From positions 1-6,978 of the forward strand of contig JAJYDP010000262.1 of the NCBI GenBank assembly GCA_021777365.1: 6,978 nt of DNA, written 5' to 3'. The stretch is from Chloroflexota bacterium. GTDB taxonomy: Bacteria > Chloroflexota > Limnocylindria > Limnocylindrales > CSP1-4. The first letter of the stretch is position 1; each line of letters starts with the position of its first letter. Positions 1 to 6,978 of this stretch are shown piece after piece. Position numbers and translations under genes: made by a program. The notes beneath the pieces are model-generated. The model saw only the letters and a program-made list of their open reading frames with translations. It made no database searches and was not told the origin of the DNA.

Positions 1-650
1 ACCGCCGCGATGTCGCGCCGCCGTGCACGCCGGGCTGCGGTGGGCGTGTGCGGCCAGGCGGTCAGGGTGAAGGACGCACCGCCCGGCAGGGCATCGACCG
101 GCTCGACCACCACCTCGATCGAGCCGGCAGAGGCATCGGTGATCGACTCGATCACCGCGCGCAGCTCCGCGGCGGGCTGCGGTGCGAGGCGCAGCACGAC
201 TCGCGGCAGCCGCGGCAGCCAGGAGGCGGTCGCCTGAGGAGCGCGCCCCTCCGCGAGGGACGCCCGCGCCCCGGGATACGTCGGCCGAGGCCGCGCGCGA
301 CCTGTCGCGCGGGGATGACCGGCGCGTGTCGAGCGATCCGGAGGGCGACGCCTGCCCGGGGAGCCTACCGCTCCGCTCCGGGTCGACCCGACAGGCCGCG
401 GCCGTGTGCCTCCCCGCGGGACCCCCGGATCGACACCGGGAAGACGGCCCGCCGGTGTCCATCGGCCGGGGGCGGGAGCCAGCCGGAGCCGGTCCAGCAC
501 CTCGCCGACCGTCCAGAAGCCCGCAACGCGGCGCGGATCCCGGGACCCGATGCCACGCGCCTCGGCCGCCATGACGCCCGATCCCCGCGCGCGGCGCAGC
601 GGCTTCGCGTTCGACGGATCGGGGCGCGGCGCGCGCGGAGCGCGGCTCAC
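1..650 (-). CDS. Unknown Arg/Pro-rich protein with EPVDxLP domain, 3' end beyond window
   Basis: The frame is open from a GTG start for 216 codons and runs off the left edge. The GTG overlaps the stop of the upstream 107-aa gene as GTGA, and a GGTGGGG ribosome-site candidate at 659-665 lies 8 bases upstream. Residues about 40-57 (VAGFWTVGEVLDRLR) could be a helix-turn-helix-like segment, which is only a guess. Residues about 60-140 are rich in Arg, Pro and Gly, with weaker G/C third-position bias, and look like a disordered linker. Residues about 149-216 resemble a folded domain: RVVLRLAP, then VVVEPVDALPGGASFTLTAW, then an Arg-rich stretch. This region aligns by eye with the C-terminal part of the 390-aa protein at 3921-5093. 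An alternative start is the ATG at 572. Function is unknown. The coupling implies co-expression with the helicase gene. The linker leaves some doubt about the N-terminal half or an undetected frameshift. Confidence 0.55.
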   Translation of the reverse strand, partial: MSRAPRAPRPDPSNAKPLRRARGSGVMAAEARGIGSRDPRRVAGFWTVGEVLDRLRLAPAPGRWTPAGRLPGVDPGVPRGGTRPRPVGSTRSGAVGSPGRRRPPDRSTRAGHPRATGRARPRPTYPGARASLAEGRAPQATASWLPRLPRVVLRLAPQPAAELRAVIESITDASAGSIEVVVEPVDALPGGASFTLTAWPHTPTAARRARRRDIAA

Positions 651-970
651 GGGTCGAGCCCCACCGTCTGACGAGCGATCCGTGGATGCGCCGGGGTGCC
701 CTCCCGGCGTCCCCGGCGCGGCCGGCGTGGTCCGTCCCCGGCGGAGCGACACCGTCCACAGAGCCGGTCGTCGACGCCCGGGTCCGGGACCAGCACCGCG
801 ACGGCCGCGGTGAAGCTCACCCCGCAGCCCCCGAGGACCAGGAGCGCCCGCTCCTTCGCGTCCACGCGGTACCCACGCACCCGGTGCAGGTGCACTTCGC
901 CGCGCCGAGCGGGCCAGGGAAGGAACCATGCGCCGACCGACGGGTAGCCGGTCACGGTCGGGTCGCTCAT
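647..970 (-). CDS. Small unknown protein (107 aa) coupled to the helicase gene
   Basis: The ATG overlaps the helicase stop codon as ATGA, and an AGGGGGG ribosome-site candidate (977-983) lies 6 bases upstream, so this start is well supported. The gene ends in a GTGA overlap with the next gene. The protein begins MSDPTVTGYPSVGAWFLPWP and contains a small, basic, His-containing segment (residues about 23-38). A hydrophobic stretch with one Cys follows (about 42-61), then a CGRC pair at residues 71-74. The tail is strongly basic (PRRPRRGRR, about 81-89). The single CxxC and basic tail would suit a small nucleic-acid-binding protein, but one CxxC is not a complete zinc site. I do not recognise the family. 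Its position between the helicase and the left-edge gene suggests an accessory role in the element's replication or control, which is inference from context only. Confidence 0.65.
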   Translation of the reverse strand: MSDPTVTGYPSVGAWFLPWPARRGEVHLHRVRGYRVDAKERALLVLGGCGVSFTAAVAVLVPDPGVDDRLCGRCRSAGDGPRRPRRGRREGTPAHPRIARQTVGLDP

Positions 971-3117
971 GCGTGGCCCCCCTGAGGCTCGACCGCGGGC
1001 GCCGGGTCGTCGTCGCGGGCGTACTCGGGGGCGTGCGCCTCCCGCCAGTGGCGCTCGTATGACTCGTCCGACACGAACGAGCCGGCGCCACAGGTCGGGC
1101 AGAAGCCGTCGGAAGCAGGTGGGGTCGTGGACTCATCAAGCCCGTCAGCGCCGGGTTGCCGGGTTCGCAGGGCGGTTGGCGTACTTTCCTCACGCGCGCG
1201 CGTGGAGGGACTTACGCCATTTGCCTCACGAACCCGGCAACCCGGATCTGGCCCCGAGTCGTCCGGCCAGAGATCGCCGTCGACGCGTAGCCGTGCTCCT
1301 CGGAAGATCGCCCGCTCGTGGCCGTCCTTGTCCGGCTGGACGCGGCCACGGCCATCGAAGGCGCTGCCGAACGCGCGGCTCTTCAGCCGGTCGTCGAGCG
1401 GGACCTTCTCGACCTCGCACCAGTCCAGGTACGCCCTGTGCAAGGCCGGGCGGGTGACCGTCGCATCAGGCTCATACACCACGCGAGCGGCGATGAAGCC
1501 GGCGAGCCGATCCTCGTCCGATCGGTAGGCGGCGGTCTTGGCCTGGACGGCGGCGGGGAAGGGCCAGAGCGACTGGCCCTTCACGGTCGCGACCGCGCCC
1601 CGCACGAGGCGGGCGAGGATGCCAGGAGCCTCGCCGTAGAGCACATCCTGGAGACCGGGATCCTCGGGCGGGTCGTCCCCAGGCTCGCCGGGCTTCCGGA
1701 AGCGCACCTCGTACGGGATGGCCGCGATCCGCCGCCAGGTGCCCTCGTCGGCGTCCTCGACGGCCGGCAGATGGTTGGTCATGAGGTGAATCGTATGGGA
1801 GGGATCCCAGGAGGTCTGCGGGCCGAAGAGCGCGCGGCCGGACTGTTCGTCGATCGAGACGAGCCGCTTCAGGGTCCCGCCCCGCAGCTTGGCGGCCTGG
1901 TCCGGCTCACGCATGAACGCGATGCGCGCCCCGCGGAGGGGCATCAGATCCGGGGTCGCGGCCCCCGCTCGCCGGCGGGCGTCGACCAGCGTCTCGATCG
2001 GGACCGGCACCCCGTAGCCACCCACGGCCCGCTTCACCGTCTTCATCAGTACGGACTTCCCGTTGTTGCCCTTCCCGTGGTGGATCCCCAGCAACTCCCG
2101 CGGGAGGCCGATGAGGGACGCGCCAAGGAACTGCTCGACCCAGGCGCTCAGTTCCTGGTCGCCGGCGAAGATCTCCGGCAGGAACCGCTCGAAGCGCGGG
2201 CAGGTCGCCTCGGGGTCGTACGCGATCCCCGAGGAGCGCGAGACCAGGTCCTCCGGGTGCCCGTCCCGGAGGAGCCCGGTCCGCAGGTCGACCACGCCGT
2301 TCTCGCACCCAAGCAGGTAGGGGTCGCGGTCCCAGGCATCGGCTGGGGTCGCGATCGGGGCCATGGTCGAGGCGATCGAGAGGCCGCCCCCGATGGCCTT
2401 GTCCGAGGCGCCGGCGGCCTGGACGGCGAGGATCGCGGCCGCCCTGGCCTTCTCGTCTCCGATGTCCAGCGCCACCTTGTACCGCCGCGCGAGGACGCGG
2501 CGCCAGAGCTCGTTCACGGTCCCGTTGGGGTCGGGCGTCCAGTGGTGCCCCGACCACAGCAGCCATCGCTTCGTCCCGTAGTCGAACCGCACCAGATGGC
2601 CCACCATCCGCGTGAAGTACCAGGCGGCGAGGGACTCACGTGTCAGGTGGCCCGGCACCTCGGGCGTGGGATCCACCATGGGGATGTCGTCGACGGCCGG
2701 GGGTCCCGCGCCCTCGGCACCGTCGGGCCAGAAGTCGTCCGCCGGTTCGAAGGCGGGGTCCGCCCGCGGGTCCGGTTGCGGCTGCCAGGTGCCGTCGACG
2801 AACCGAGCCTTCTCCGTGACCGGCACCGCGGCGGCGTACTGCTGCGCCCACTCCCGGCCGCCGATGGGATGCGCTGGCCCGTCCGGCGGTGCCGGCTGGT
2901 GCGACAAGCGGAAGGCGTCCAGGATCACCTGCCGCTGGCCTGGAGACAGCGGCAGGGCGGCGGGCGTGCCGGGGTGCCGCTCATTCCACCACTGGACCAG
3001 GACTTGGTCGCTAGGCGATCCGTCCGCCATTGACCCTGAGGGAGCCGCCTCGATGACCGGCTGGGGGATCGGGCCGTCGGGCGGTGTATCCTCAGGCGGT
3101 CGGAGATGTGCGTCCAT
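967..3117 (-). CDS. D5/P4-type superfamily 3 helicase (replication protein) with C-terminal zinc finger
   Basis: This is an SF3 DNA helicase of the phage/plasmid primase P4 C-terminal family, expected to act as a ring-shaped ATPase that unwinds the element's origin. Residues 1-155 are Pro/Asp-rich without a recognisable fold. About 160-340 resemble the D5_N region (YGTKRWLLWSGHHW, then WDRDPYLLGCENGVVDLRTG). Walker A is GKGNNGKS at 348-355. The Walker B-like segment is ARIAFMRE ending in E404. Motif C is HLMTN ending in N448, followed by a WRRI arginine segment at 461-464. About 555-612 resemble the winged-helix tail seen in these proteins. Residues 673-695 form a C-x2-C-x13-H-x4-H pattern (C673, C676, H690, H695), an unusual addition. 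No archaeo-eukaryotic primase domain is visible, so 'helicase' is safer than 'primase'. The start is set by GGAGGT five bases upstream. At 716 aa it is near the family's usual size. The 3' end is coupled to the next gene. Confidence 0.95.
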   Translation of the reverse strand: MDAHLRPPEDTPPDGPIPQPVIEAAPSGSMADGSPSDQVLVQWWNERHPGTPAALPLSPGQRQVILDAFRLSHQPAPPDGPAHPIGGREWAQQYAAAVPVTEKARFVDGTWQPQPDPRADPAFEPADDFWPDGAEGAGPPAVDDIPMVDPTPEVPGHLTRESLAAWYFTRMVGHLVRFDYGTKRWLLWSGHHWTPDPNGTVNELWRRVLARRYKVALDIGDEKARAAAILAVQAAGASDKAIGGGLSIASTMAPIATPADAWDRDPYLLGCENGVVDLRTGLLRDGHPEDLVSRSSGIAYDPEATCPRFERFLPEIFAGDQELSAWVEQFLGASLIGLPRELLGIHHGKGNNGKSVLMKTVKRAVGGYGVPVPIETLVDARRRAGAATPDLMPLRGARIAFMREPDQAAKLRGGTLKRLVSIDEQSGRALFGPQTSWDPSHTIHLMTNHLPAVEDADEGTWRRIAAIPYEVRFRKPGEPGDDPPEDPGLQDVLYGEAPGILARLVRGAVATVKGQSLWPFPAAVQAKTAAYRSDEDRLAGFIAARVVYEPDATVTRPALHRAYLDWCEVEKVPLDDRLKSRAFGSAFDGRGRVQPDKDGHERAIFRGARLRVDGDLWPDDSGPDPGCRVREANGVSPSTRAREESTPTALRTRQPGADGLDESTTPPASDGFCPTCGAGSFVSDESYERHWREAHAPEYARDDDPAPAVEPQGGHA

Positions 3118-3313
3118 GGCACACCTCCGGCTCGGCCGCCGCGGTCAGTCTCATTGACGCGGCGGCCCCCTCGTTCTTGGGGCGGTTCGGGACGGCCGCG
3201 GCGGCCATCGAGGCGCCCGCGATCAACGTCTGCACGACGCGGCGCTGAACGGCGCTCAGCTCGCCGATCGGGACCACGGGCTTCTCCGGCACCATCGTGC
3301 TACCGCGTTGCAT
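3092..3313 (-). CDS. Possible small protein (73 aa) with helix-turn-helix-like start, doubtful
   Basis: An ATG at 3313 is preceded by GGGGA (3319-3323) five bases upstream. It overlaps the end of the 120-aa gene by 14 bases, and the ORF runs 26 bases into the helicase gene, which keeps it in the same unit. Residues about 17-40 (IGELSAVQRRVVQTLIAGAS followed by MAAAA) resemble the first helices of small helix-turn-helix proteins. The expected recognition helix does not follow; instead the sequence becomes Ala-rich across an inverted repeat. I checked the other two minus-strand frames over the next 75 bases and found no convincing continuation, so a simple frameshift is not supported. A second ATG at 3295 is possible. 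It may be a real short DNA-binding protein, a decayed remnant, or a leader region for helicase translation. Confidence 0.4.
   Translation of the reverse strand: MQRGSTMVPEKPVVPIGELSAVQRRVVQTLIAGASMAAAAVPNRPKNEGAAASMRLTAAAEPEVCHGRTSPTA
3123..3128 (-). promoter_or_regulatory. Strong ribosome binding site of the helicase gene
   Basis: On the minus strand GGAGGT is followed by five bases (gtgcc) and then ATG at 3117. It is the clearest Shine-Dalgarno sequence in the window and fixes the helicase start over the in-frame ATG at codon 30. It lies immediately downstream of a hairpin with a 13-bp stem, so access to it could be modulated. Confidence 0.8.
3134..3167 (-). repeat. Imperfect hairpin just upstream of the helicase ribosome site
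   Basis: GGCCGCCGC at 3134-3142 pairs with GCGGCGGCC at 3159-3167. Inside that, GTCA (3144-3147) pairs with TGAC (3155-3158), leaving one bulged G at 3143 and a seven-base loop. The stem ends six bases before the helicase GGAGGT. It lies inside the doubtful 73-aa ORF. It could be an RNA structure controlling helicase translation, part of a replication origin, or a by-product of Ala-rich coding sequence. A further GCGGCGGCC copy is at 3198-3206. Confidence 0.5.
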
Positions 3314-3928: not shown

Positions 3929-5093
3929 ATCCACGCACTCGGCTGCCCGATGCTCCGCGTGAGGGTTCACCGAGGATGGTCGCGGCCGCGTCGCGCTCCC
4001 ACGCCTCGAACTCGTCCGCGCTCGCGTGGGCCGCCGCGCCGACGGCATGGACGAACGCCACGATGGCCCGCCCGCGCCGGAGGGAGCAGCGCCGCTGCGG
4101 ATCCCACATGACCGCGAACGGGGCGGCCGGGTTCAGGGGGAGATCATCGACGGGCTCGAACACGACCTGCGCGTGATGCGCGATGCGACGGGCGGCTTCG
4201 TCGAGGACGAGCTGGACCTCTGGCGGCGCGTCGGCCGCCACCACGACCCGGAGGATAATGAGCGGACGCCCCCGGAGTAGTCCACGGCGTCGTGCCTGGT
4301 GAAGTGCATCGCCCATACTGCCAACCGACGTCACCTCGGGTGTCGCCCGCGGCGCTCGTTCCCGGGCGTCCCCGAGGCGCACTCGTTGACGCCGGGAGAG
4401 GCTCTCACTGAAGGGCGGGAAGGGGACGGAGGCCGCCACCGGGTCGCCAGGCGGTTGGCGACTGATGTGCACCCATGCGCCGCATGCACACCGGACTCGG
4501 CAGGGCACGCGTGCCTCGGGACCCTGTCCCGGCTCCCAGAAGGCGGGCTCGTCGCGGTCCGGCCGCGGCACTACTCGTCGTGCGTCGCGCGAGGAAGCCT
4601 CGATGACCAGGTGCTGGAACTCCGGGCTGAGCACGGGGAGCCCGAGCCGGACGGCGGCCAGCACGAGTTGCGCGTCGAACGCGGGATCCGCGATGTCCAG
4701 CCGCAGGCCGGCGAGATGAAAGGTGCCGACGAGACGCATCGCCTGCGCATCGGGCCGAACGCCCCCCCGGGGTCGCTCGTAGACCGCGAGCTCCGGGGTG
4801 CCGTGGGACTCGTCGACCAGGACGCTACGGACCAACTCCGTGCACGGGAACAGCATGCCGAGGCCAAGGTCGAGGCCGAGCTGGCGGCCGATCGTCGCCC
4901 CGCAATACGGGCAGGAGACGCGCACCCGCACGGTCTCGTCGGCCGGGGCCGGGAACGGCCAGGGCTGATAGAGCGCCTCCCGGCCAGGTCGGGACCGGCC
5001 CGGCGTCCCCGCGTGGCCGCGCCCTGGACGCGCGGGGACGCCGGGGTTCAAGCGGCGCACCTCGTGGATCTCGGGCTCATCCGCCCCGCTCAC
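3921..5093 (-). CDS. Unknown cysteine-containing protein (390 aa) coupled to the integrase
   Basis: I favour the GTG at 5093, which overlaps the integrase stop as GTGA and has GGAG (5102-5105) eight bases upstream. A GTG at 5117 would add eight residues but lacks a ribosome site. Residues about 15-40 are a Pro/Gly/Arg segment lying over a strong DNA inverted repeat. A CPYC pair is at 61-64, with a further Cys at 84, and a C-x3-C-x-C cluster (CRVRCACG) is at 198-205. These could form one or two zinc sites. The middle (about 110-170) is hydrophobic and regular, like a folded alpha/beta domain. Residues about 277-350 contain RPLIILRV, then VVFEPVDDLPLNP, then an Arg-rich turn. This resembles the C-terminal part of the protein at 1-650. 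I recognise no family. Coupling to an integrase suggests a role in recombination, excision control or element maintenance, by inference. The stop codon is inside a hairpin. Confidence 0.75.
   Translation of the reverse strand: MSGADEPEIHEVRRLNPGVPARPGRGHAGTPGRSRPGREALYQPWPFPAPADETVRVRVSCPYCGATIGRQLGLDLGLGMLFPCTELVRSVLVDESHGTPELAVYERPRGGVRPDAQAMRLVGTFHLAGLRLDIADPAFDAQLVLAAVRLGLPVLSPEFQHLVIEASSRDARRVVPRPDRDEPAFWEPGQGPEARVPCRVRCACGAWVHISRQPPGDPVAASVPFPPFSESLSRRQRVRLGDARERAPRATPEVTSVGSMGDALHQARRRGLLRGRPLIILRVVVAADAPPEVQLVLDEAARRIAHHAQVVFEPVDDLPLNPAAPFAVMWDPQRRCSLRRGRAIVAFVHAVGAAAHASADEFEAWERDAAATILGEPSRGASGSRVRGSV
4999..5045. repeat. Perfect 15-bp inverted repeat inside the 5' end of the 390-aa gene
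   Basis: CCCGGCGTCCCCGCG at 4999-5013 is the exact reverse complement of CGCGGGGACGCCGGG at 5031-5045, with 17 bases between. It starts about 48 bases into the coding region and encodes part of a Pro/Gly/Arg segment. As RNA it would be an extremely stable stem-loop just after the start codon, able to slow ribosomes or attenuate transcription. No T-tract follows. The high GC content makes short repeats common here, but a 15-bp perfect match is beyond what is usual. Confidence 0.7.
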
Positions 5094-6364
5094 GATCGCC
5101 ACTCCGGAACGGTCCACTCCGCCCGGACGGGCAGGAGGTCCGGCCCCATGTCGACGCGCGTCCAGATGGCCCGCAGCACCGCGTTGATCGCCTCTGGGGG
5201 CCAGGACCAGTCCAGCGTGGGGATACTCACGAGCCGGCCGGCAGCGCGACCGGCAGCTTCGAGCCGGGAGATCTCGGCATCCACCTCGCCCAGGCGCCGC
5301 TGTCGCTCGGGCTTGTCGATCGTGCCGTCCGCGTACAGGTCGATGATGCGTTCTCGCTTCGCCTCAAGGGCGGCCCGGCGGACGCCGTTGTCAGCGTCCT
5401 CGCGGATCGCATCGAACGGGATCCGGAGTCGGGCGGCTTCCTCCTTCACCCAAGGCAGGAGGTTCCGCTCAAGCACGGAAGACCGCCCATGGGGCCTGCC
5501 GATGGCGTTGCCGCGGGAGCAGTAGTACTGCCCGCGCGCCACGTTGGGGGTGAGCATCCGGCCACAGTGGCAGCGGAGGAGCTGCCCGAACATCGCGGCC
5601 GGTGCCCTGACGCGGCGTCCGCTGGCAGCCTTCATGGGCAGCAACTCGGGGGCGTGGTCTTCCAACACCCGGAACAGGGCGGAGTGGCCCCACGTCGAAC
5701 CCTTTGGGCTCGGGATGCCGCGAGCGTTCAGCAGCCGGCAGGCGCCGTTGACCGTGCCGGCTTCATGGTAGGCAGCCAGGACGGGGCCGATCGGACGGGC
5801 CGGATCGGGCTCGCGGACGATGCGGCCGTCGACCTTGGTGTGACGCCACCCGTACCCAGGATGTCCGAGTCGGTCCCCGCGGGCCTGGCGGGCCTTGATG
5901 GCGCCGCGGGCGCGCGCCTTCGCGGTGTTCAGCTCTAGCTCGGAGAAGACGGCCGTGATCTGTGCGAACGCCTGCGCCATCGGCGAGCCGTCCCCGCCTA
6001 GTACCCCCTCGCGGAGCGTCACGACGCGGGCGCCGTGAGCCTTCGCGGCGTCTGTCAGCCGCACGAATGTCCGCATGGACCGATAGAGCCGGTCCAGCGC
6101 GTACGCATACACCGCGGTCACCTCGCCCCGCTCGATGGCGGCCAGCATGTCGAGGAACGCGGTCCGCCTGGCTTCCTTTGCCTCGTCCGCGGAGCGGTCC
6201 CAGTCCACGAACACGCGGAGGTTCCCGTTGTAGCCGTCGCGGTGAGCCAACTCGCGGACGGCCGCCTCTTGCGCCTCCCGGCTCACGTCGCCGGGGTTCT
6301 CGTCATCGGCGGATGATCGCCGGAGGTACGCCACAGGGTACCGGGACGCCATCGTCGGTTCCAT
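5090..6364 (-). CDS. Serine integrase/recombinase (large serine recombinase type)
   Basis: This enzyme cuts and rejoins DNA through a serine to integrate or excise the element. The resolvase-type catalytic domain spans about 10-155: Y13-L-R15-R-S17 carries the nucleophile serine, LDRLYRS (90-96) the usual arginine motif, and ELELNTAKARARG (142-154) the start of the long E helix. The Recombinase domain follows (about 165-245, with LGHPGYGWR and LLNARGIPSPKG). A zinc-ribbon-like part has C265-x-C267, C282 and probably H292 in place of the usual last Cys. A coiled-coil segment is at about 330-372. At 424 aa it is somewhat short for large serine integrases but has all their regions. ATG at 6364 or 6352 both keep the motif; neither has a well-placed ribosome site, so a nearly leaderless message is possible. 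Its 3' end overlaps the next gene (GTGA). Its place beside a flanking host-type gene fits an element end. Confidence 0.95.
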   Translation of the reverse strand: MEPTMASRYPVAYLRRSSADDENPGDVSREAQEAAVRELAHRDGYNGNLRVFVDWDRSADEAKEARRTAFLDMLAAIERGEVTAVYAYALDRLYRSMRTFVRLTDAAKAHGARVVTLREGVLGGDGSPMAQAFAQITAVFSELELNTAKARARGAIKARQARGDRLGHPGYGWRHTKVDGRIVREPDPARPIGPVLAAYHEAGTVNGACRLLNARGIPSPKGSTWGHSALFRVLEDHAPELLPMKAASGRRVRAPAAMFGQLLRCHCGRMLTPNVARGQYYCSRGNAIGRPHGRSSVLERNLLPWVKEEAARLRIPFDAIREDADNGVRRAALEAKRERIIDLYADGTIDKPERQRRLGEVDAEISRLEAAGRAAGRLVSIPTLDWSWPPEAINAVLRAIWTRVDMGPDLLPVRAEWTVPEWRS

Positions 6365-6546: not shown

Positions 6547-6978
6547 TCAGCCCTCGCTGTCGACGACAGCGGCCGGCACTCGGAGCCAGAACCGCGTGCC
6601 GCCGCCCTCCCGCGGCTCGGCGCCGATCGTGCCGCGGTGGGCCCGGACCCCGGCGGCGGCCGTCGCGAGGCCCAGCCCGAAGCCTGGTCCGGTTGCGTTC
6701 GGGCCGCGCCGGAACGGCTCGAAGAGATGCTCGCGCACGGCGTCCGGGAGGCCCGGGCCGCGGTCGAGCATCTCGACGACCAGCGCGGGACCCTGTGCCG
6801 GGTCGAGCTCGCCGCGAGAGCCGGCCGGCGCCCGGTCCGAAGCGGCGTCATCGACCTCGGCCAGGAGGTCCACCTGCGATCCCACGGGGCTGTAGAGGAT
6901 GGCGTTCGTGAGCAGGTTGCTGATCGACTGCTCGAGCCGCACGCGGTCGACCTCGACCTCCCGGTCGCACGCGCGCTG
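6547..6978 (-). CDS. Sensor histidine kinase, C-terminal ATPase domain, 5' end beyond window
   Basis: This is the C-terminal 143 residues of a two-component sensor kinase; the frame is open to the right edge. The HATPase motifs appear in order: N box (NLLTNAILYSP), G1 box (DRGPGLP), F box (LFEPFRRGP) and G2 box (GFGLGLA), ending GGGTRFWLRVP. This domain binds ATP and phosphorylates a histidine located in the part outside the window. A 25-residue insert-like stretch rich in Ala, Asp and Glu (about residues 42-65 of the visible part) separates the N box from the G1 box. The domain is complete and ends naturally, so the element has not visibly disrupted it. Codon use matches its neighbours. The sensor input and partner regulator are unknown. 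It is most likely a chromosomal gene beside the element. Confidence 0.92.
   Translation of the reverse strand, partial: QRACDREVEVDRVRLEQSISNLLTNAILYSPVGSQVDLLAEVDDAASDRAPAGSRGELDPAQGPALVVEMLDRGPGLPDAVREHLFEPFRRGPNATGPGFGLGLATAAAGVRAHRGTIGAEPREGGGTRFWLRVPAAVVDSEG

Follow-up and report, generated by a model that had tools for sequence, protein, structure and literature searches.

Why would an integrative element encode two proteins, one on each side of its helicase gene, that seem to end in the same small domain? The question is raised by contig JAJYDP010000262.1 of a Chloroflexota bacterium of the order Limnocylindrales (assembly GCA_021777365.1), of which 6,978 nucleotides, very probably the whole contig, were analysed and are referred to here as the window. 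Both a large serine recombinase (the integrase) and a D5/P4-type superfamily 3 (SF3) helicase are encoded in it. A sequence-only reading had aligned by eye the C-terminal parts of a 390-amino-acid (aa) protein, encoded next to the integrase, and of a protein running off the left edge of the contig, and had proposed a common partner or a duplicated module specific to this element. Our analysis bears out the alignment: the left-edge copy clearly belongs to a rare and unnamed domain family, and the 390-aa copy probably does. The minus strand is the coding strand of every gene considered, and the features on which the argument turns are as follows.

3..650, minus strand: left-edge protein (216 aa, running off the contig); GTG at 650-648 overlaps the TGA of a 107-aa gene
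3..206, minus strand: shared domain, left-edge copy, defined by alignment with relatives P0126-P0130
3921..5093, minus strand: 390-aa integrase-coupled protein; GTGA overlap with the integrase stop at 5093-5090
3975..4268, minus strand: shared domain in the 390-aa protein's C-terminus, a distant and probable copy (profile E 0.005; shuffle tests; model)

The left-edge frame, on whose translation the proposed likeness depended, is a real gene. Codon log-odds trained on other genes score this frame best at 1-225, its start overlaps the preceding gene, and two relatives, P0128 and P0129, share its domain. Its codon scores are clearly negative at 226-450 and near zero at 376-525, which fits an Arg/Pro-rich linker and by itself lends the gene no support. 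The protein consists of an N-terminal motif, VAGFWTVGEVLDRLRLAPAPGR, the Arg/Pro-rich linker and the shared domain, which is cut in or before its last helix. The helix removed by the contig edge is visible in P0128 (92 aa), which is 95% identical to the left-edge protein over the domain. In P0129 (172 aa) the domain can be aligned throughout and the N-terminal motif recurs as VAGFxTVGEVLxxLRLAxAPGR; the linker between the two is basic in P0129 as well, but differs from that of the left-edge protein.

Some 5.8 billion proteins were searched with a profile, which yielded five proteins with the left-edge domain (P0126-P0130). Of these, P0126 and P0127 are 131-aa proteins from two contigs of Chloroflexi metagenome-assembled genomes, JAJYKX010000008.1 (locus L002) and JAKAHL010000030.1 (L001). 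The left-edge copy scores 87.5 bits (E 3e-25) against a profile holding neither window copy, and 42 bits in a leave-one-out test from which its near relative P0129 was also excluded and in which the 390-aa copy was kept. The usual form of the protein is about 131 to over 216 aa long. Its N-terminal arm is long, basic and for the most part disordered (net charge +11 in P0130, +13 in P0126 and +13 in P0129, compared with +6 in the linker of the 390-aa protein) and leads to a domain of net charge -3 to +2. By reading, the left-edge protein follows this plan, with a basic Arg/Pro-rich N-terminal part and a place in a helicase operon, as in the P0126-P0130 family. Four columns (Arg, Leu, Phe and Pro) are invariant in all seven aligned rows, the conserved Pro lying internally after an arm of 46-77 residues (P0126, P0129, P0130).

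The domain family is real, rare and, as had been supposed, without a name. No significant match to the domain was found in Pfam, NCBIfam, PHROG, PADLOC or PDB sequences, PHROG and NCBIfam being searched with the two window proteins only and PADLOC matching none of the seven proteins given. Weak matches of P0130 to Bin2_C (E 0.21) and BMC (E 2) are not taken as real, and neither is one between the family profile and a designed repeat protein of the PDB (E 0.034). Among 177 genomes from the class to which L002's genome belongs, 18 match the domain at E<=0.05, of which two are the known elements and 16 are uninspected (E 0.002-0.04). Among 400 genomes of the phylum, six match at E<=0.01: L002's genome and five housekeeping-type proteins (L086-L090), identified by Pfam as Iso_dh (L086), CN_hydrolase (L087) and, below cut-off, Pribosyltran (L088), which L089 and L090 resemble by eye. 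No clear further copy emerged from these surveys, in which the best 29 (class) or best 10 (phylum) candidates per genome were scored. Likewise, viral contigs searched with P0129 and P0130 yielded no relatives, nor did plasmids and phages searched with P0130.

Homology of the 390-aa C-terminus to this domain is probable. The protein has Cys at residues 61, 64, 84, 198, 202, 204 and 336; a basic linker leads to the domain at residues 284-381 of a 398-aa reading, equivalent to 276-373 of the 390-aa reading. The upstream parts of the two window proteins indeed differ, being Cys-rich here and an Arg/Pro-rich linker in the left-edge protein. Against a profile lacking the 390-aa copy, the protein scores 16.2 bits (E 0.005) and takes the first non-family rank among 9,342 open reading frames (ORFs) not chosen by such a profile, the next match lying at E 0.45. 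With a smaller profile lacking both window copies it scores 16.0 bits (E 0.006), first after the clear members, with the next match at 0.083. None of 5,000 whole-protein shuffles was as good under the former profile. The C-terminal 130 residues were compared with 50,000 shuffles of each kind: the score was reached by one full shuffle and 12 local ones, and with the smaller profile by 0 and 35, respectively.

The two predicted folds have the same order of elements. An AlphaFold2 model of 150 residues of the 390-aa C-terminus, made with no alignment, gives at low confidence the order beta-alpha-beta-beta-alpha (E39-46 H51-63 E68-75 E86-90 H98-115). The family model gives the same order (E50-56 H61-74 E79-85 E94-97 H107-132), its domain blocks having a predicted local distance difference test (pLDDT) score of 79-88 except for residues 101-110 at 56. 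By hand count on the alignment, the first four elements of both models coincide within about two residues. Foldseek returned nothing convincing (best PDB match E 3e-3, best viral models E 0.015).

The strongest alternative is that the 390-aa C-terminus is unrelated to the left-edge domain and that short Val/Pro/Asp motifs in high-GC sequence are alike by chance, which we consider unlikely, if by no means negligible. Several results speak for it and weigh against homology. Searches with single sequences fall short of significance (E 0.19 and 2.7), and the 16 bits of the leave-one-out test compare with 35-55 for four clear members. Four unrelated enzymes (L087-L090), among them by Pfam a nitrilase-type protein (L087) and, at a score under the cut-off, a phosphoribosyltransferase (L088), reach 17-22 bits with the profile that gives the 390-aa protein 16.2. 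Among 7,312 ORFs, some of them from loci retrieved as matches in large genome surveys, the protein comes 13th with one profile and 11th with the other, behind eight family rows plus four and two enzymes, respectively. The local shuffles do occasionally equal its score, and in a comparable profile test one shuffle hit reached E 0.0058 in 3,006 sequences. The profile-profile and structural checks that the sequence-only reading had called for each cut both ways: hhalign gives E 6e-4 with a probability of only 28%, and the topology is the same, in register, with a mean pLDDT of 50.6 for the lone 390-aa model. The two models are, moreover, not wholly independent, the 390-aa copy being among the seven rows of input to the family model. 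Finally, the searches brought up no relative of the 390-aa protein, so that the double occurrence rests on one contig.

Against chance stand the first non-family rank in an unselected ORF set, the topology obtained from the protein's own sequence and the four invariant columns. The enzymes, furthermore, are the best matches of 400 genomes, and their scores show the chance level of a search thousands of times larger, not that of a test of one named protein. Homology is probable in our view; the two window copies are not a recent duplication.

From the protein database, with 7,997 candidates scored, the search for relatives of the 390-aa protein returned only the protein itself. Its six peptide patterns found nothing in viral contigs, and plasmids and phages gave no match at E<=10. 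No match was seen at E<=0.1 in loci L001-L049, at E<=1e-3 in L050-L103 or at E<=10 in the PDB, and the 177 class genomes gave a single match, at E 0.005, which covers residues 32-92 and contains a stop.

With the family established, its genomic setting comes into view, for which the remaining genes of the window are needed.

647..970, minus strand: 107-aa Cys-containing protein between the helicase and left-edge genes; ATGA overlap with the helicase stop
967..3117, minus strand: D5/P4-type SF3 helicase (Pfam D5_N E 3e-26; TIGR01613 E 4e-53)
3092..3313, minus strand: 73-aa protein overlapping the helicase start; weak match in the same place in L001 and L002
3300..3761, minus strand: 153-aa protein encoded upstream of the helicase; L002 and L007 have a homologue in that position
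5090..6364, minus strand: large serine recombinase (integrase; Pfam Resolvase E 3e-22; phrog_95 integrase E 3e-47)
6978-6547, minus strand: histidine-kinase C-terminal fragment (Pfam HATPase_c)

In all three readable loci (the window, L001 and L002), which are elements of Chloroflexota-type bacteria, the domain is encoded in a D5-helicase operon. As read from the bases, four-base GTGA or ATGA overlaps join the integrase and 390-aa genes, the helicase and 107-aa genes, and the 107-aa and left-edge genes. In L001 and L002 the domain gene shares its operon with a D5 helicase 63% identical to that of the window and with a homologue of the 107-aa protein, which adjoins the domain protein (56% over 61 aa). 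The L002 operon comprises helicase, 229-aa, 131-aa, 107-aa-like and resolvase (Pfam) genes, each with a four-base overlap. P0126 and P0127 resemble the left-edge protein in domain, basic arm and operon, but their gene lies before, not after, the 107-aa-like gene, and they are without the EPVD-LP motif. L002 has a tyrosine integrase upstream, both loci have a small resolvase downstream, and neither contains a 390-aa-like match. The interpretation given by the sequence-only reading, a common partner or an element-specific duplicated module, is supported in part.

Across nine close helicase loci (L001-L008, L034), the domain is present in two, with no clear copy in the other seven; the sequence available reaches only 0.2-2.4 kb past the helicase match in L004, L005 and L008, and in L034 it does not extend ahead of that match. 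No 390-aa-like protein was found in integrase loci L092, L093 and L094, read gene by gene out of 12 fetched with flanks of about 1.5 kb. Integrase relatives at E<=1e-20 occur in 15 of the 177 class genomes. The 107-aa protein matches 39 of these genomes at E<=0.01, strongly only in the two known elements.

What might such a domain do? The likeliest reading, if a tentative one, is that a small beta-alpha-beta-beta-alpha domain, dimerising or docking, is carried on a basic DNA-binding arm and serves the replication module. The arm would bind element DNA, and the compact, near-neutral domain would dimerise or dock on a common partner in that module, either the helicase or the 107-aa protein. A diverged copy probably ends the Cys-rich, zinc-knuckle-like protein encoded by the gene that overlaps the integrase gene, and this protein may join the same assembly through its domain, so that excision and integration would be coordinated with replication. 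The family, its operon context, the basic arms and the predicted fold are themselves established here. One observation, which weighs against the proposal, gives no hint of sequence-specific binding by the arm: it varies between L001 and L002 while the domain stays identical. The two 131-aa proteins (L001:3003-3395, L002:10657-11049) are the same from an RPRV motif to the end, and differing arms over identical domains hint at fast change of the arm or at recombination.

A different role, which we judge unlikely, is that of a small DNA-binding regulator (a repressor, origin binder or recombination directionality factor), the 390-aa copy being the integrase's partner of that kind. The basic arms would suit it, as would the overlap of the 390-aa and integrase genes and the presence of recombinases in the operons (the window integrase; the small resolvase in L001 and L002); against it, the fold domain is near-neutral and no significant helix-turn-helix, ribbon-helix-helix or excisionase match was obtained in Pfam or, for the two window proteins, in PHROGs or NCBIfam. 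Considerably less probable is a DinI-like modulator of RecA filaments that might damp the SOS response of the host or exploit it for the timing of excision and replication. DinI (PF06183) shares the predicted beta-alpha-beta-beta-alpha order over nearly the whole chain, but no sequence relation was found, membership fails by sequence, and here a long basic arm precedes the domain. Structural matches to DinI and to tautomerases of the 4-oxalocrotonate tautomerase (4-OT)/MIF superfamily fall in the noise range; the absence of DinI from the 50 structural-match rows of the 390-aa model proves nothing. Tautomerases must have their catalytic Pro at the N-terminus. A 4-OT/MIF-like domain retained for its trimeric scaffold is highly improbable, for the shared beta-alpha-beta unit scores in the range of common arrangements, the 390-aa model is of low confidence and its matched range starts at an Ile two residues past its Pro, the conserved Pro is internal, and no significant match was found in Pfam. 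A further lead, the DciA-like N-terminus (TVGEVL), also failed: a profile from three of the seven DciA (DUF721, PF05258) genes found in related genomes ranks the left-edge protein 861 of 2,844 reported, with the other five lower, and hhalign gives a probability of 0.2%.

Returning to the proposed domain on a DNA-binding arm, one of its closest known settings is that of P4-type integrative elements, with which the window shares an integrase, a D5 (SF3) helicase and small accessory genes; Pfam, PHROG and NCBIfam matches place both enzymes on the window element, as expected of a D5/P4-type element. It differs in that its accessory proteins have no significant family match in the libraries searched. 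Literature listings gave no paper on integrative elements of Limnocylindrales-type bacteria and, among the titles listed, none evidently combining DinI/RecA with a mobile-element integrase.

Other features of these loci may be noted. The 153-aa protein has homologues in L002 (55% over 69 aa) and L007 (54% over 52 aa), and the 73-aa protein a match at E about 0.045 at the equivalent position in L001 and L002. The 107-aa protein, without Pfam, NCBIfam or significant PHROG match, has a conserved Cys motif (CxRC) and an HRVxxYRVD motif in common with the 81-aa proteins of L001 and L002. The helicase C-terminus (967-1200) bears a C2H2-like CPTCG...H...H finger, also present in the L001 helicase; one helicase relative carries the source name Candidatus Limnocylindrales. 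In L001, the 229-aa protein between helicase and domain gene (2317-3006) has a treble-clef-like Cys group and matches DUF2116 at E 0.003, below the curated cut-off. The kinase fragment (6547-6978) is 83% identical to genes of two genomes of L002's class. DNA similarity to these genomes ends at 6570, which fits a chromosomal flank, and the right end of the element thus probably lies between kinase and integrase. The flank and the name of that helicase relative point to a Chloroflexota bacterium of this kind as the probable host. The highest-identity integrase relatives (L092, L094; 59% overall, 69% over residues 7-222) have next to them a gene, presumably pheT, that encodes domains of phenylalanyl-tRNA synthetase beta (B3/4, B5 and tRNA-binding), which suggests a common integration site.

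It is an appealing, if improbable, prospect that an undescribed domain physically links the recombination and replication machines, one copy being encoded within the operon of the helicase while a second is part of a zinc-knuckle-like fusion protein co-translated with the integrase. If true, this would bring to light an integrative-element protein family in a poorly studied bacterial group and offer a simple idea of how excision is tied to replication. Should only the family be real, its profile would still serve annotators in recognising proteins that are now nameless.
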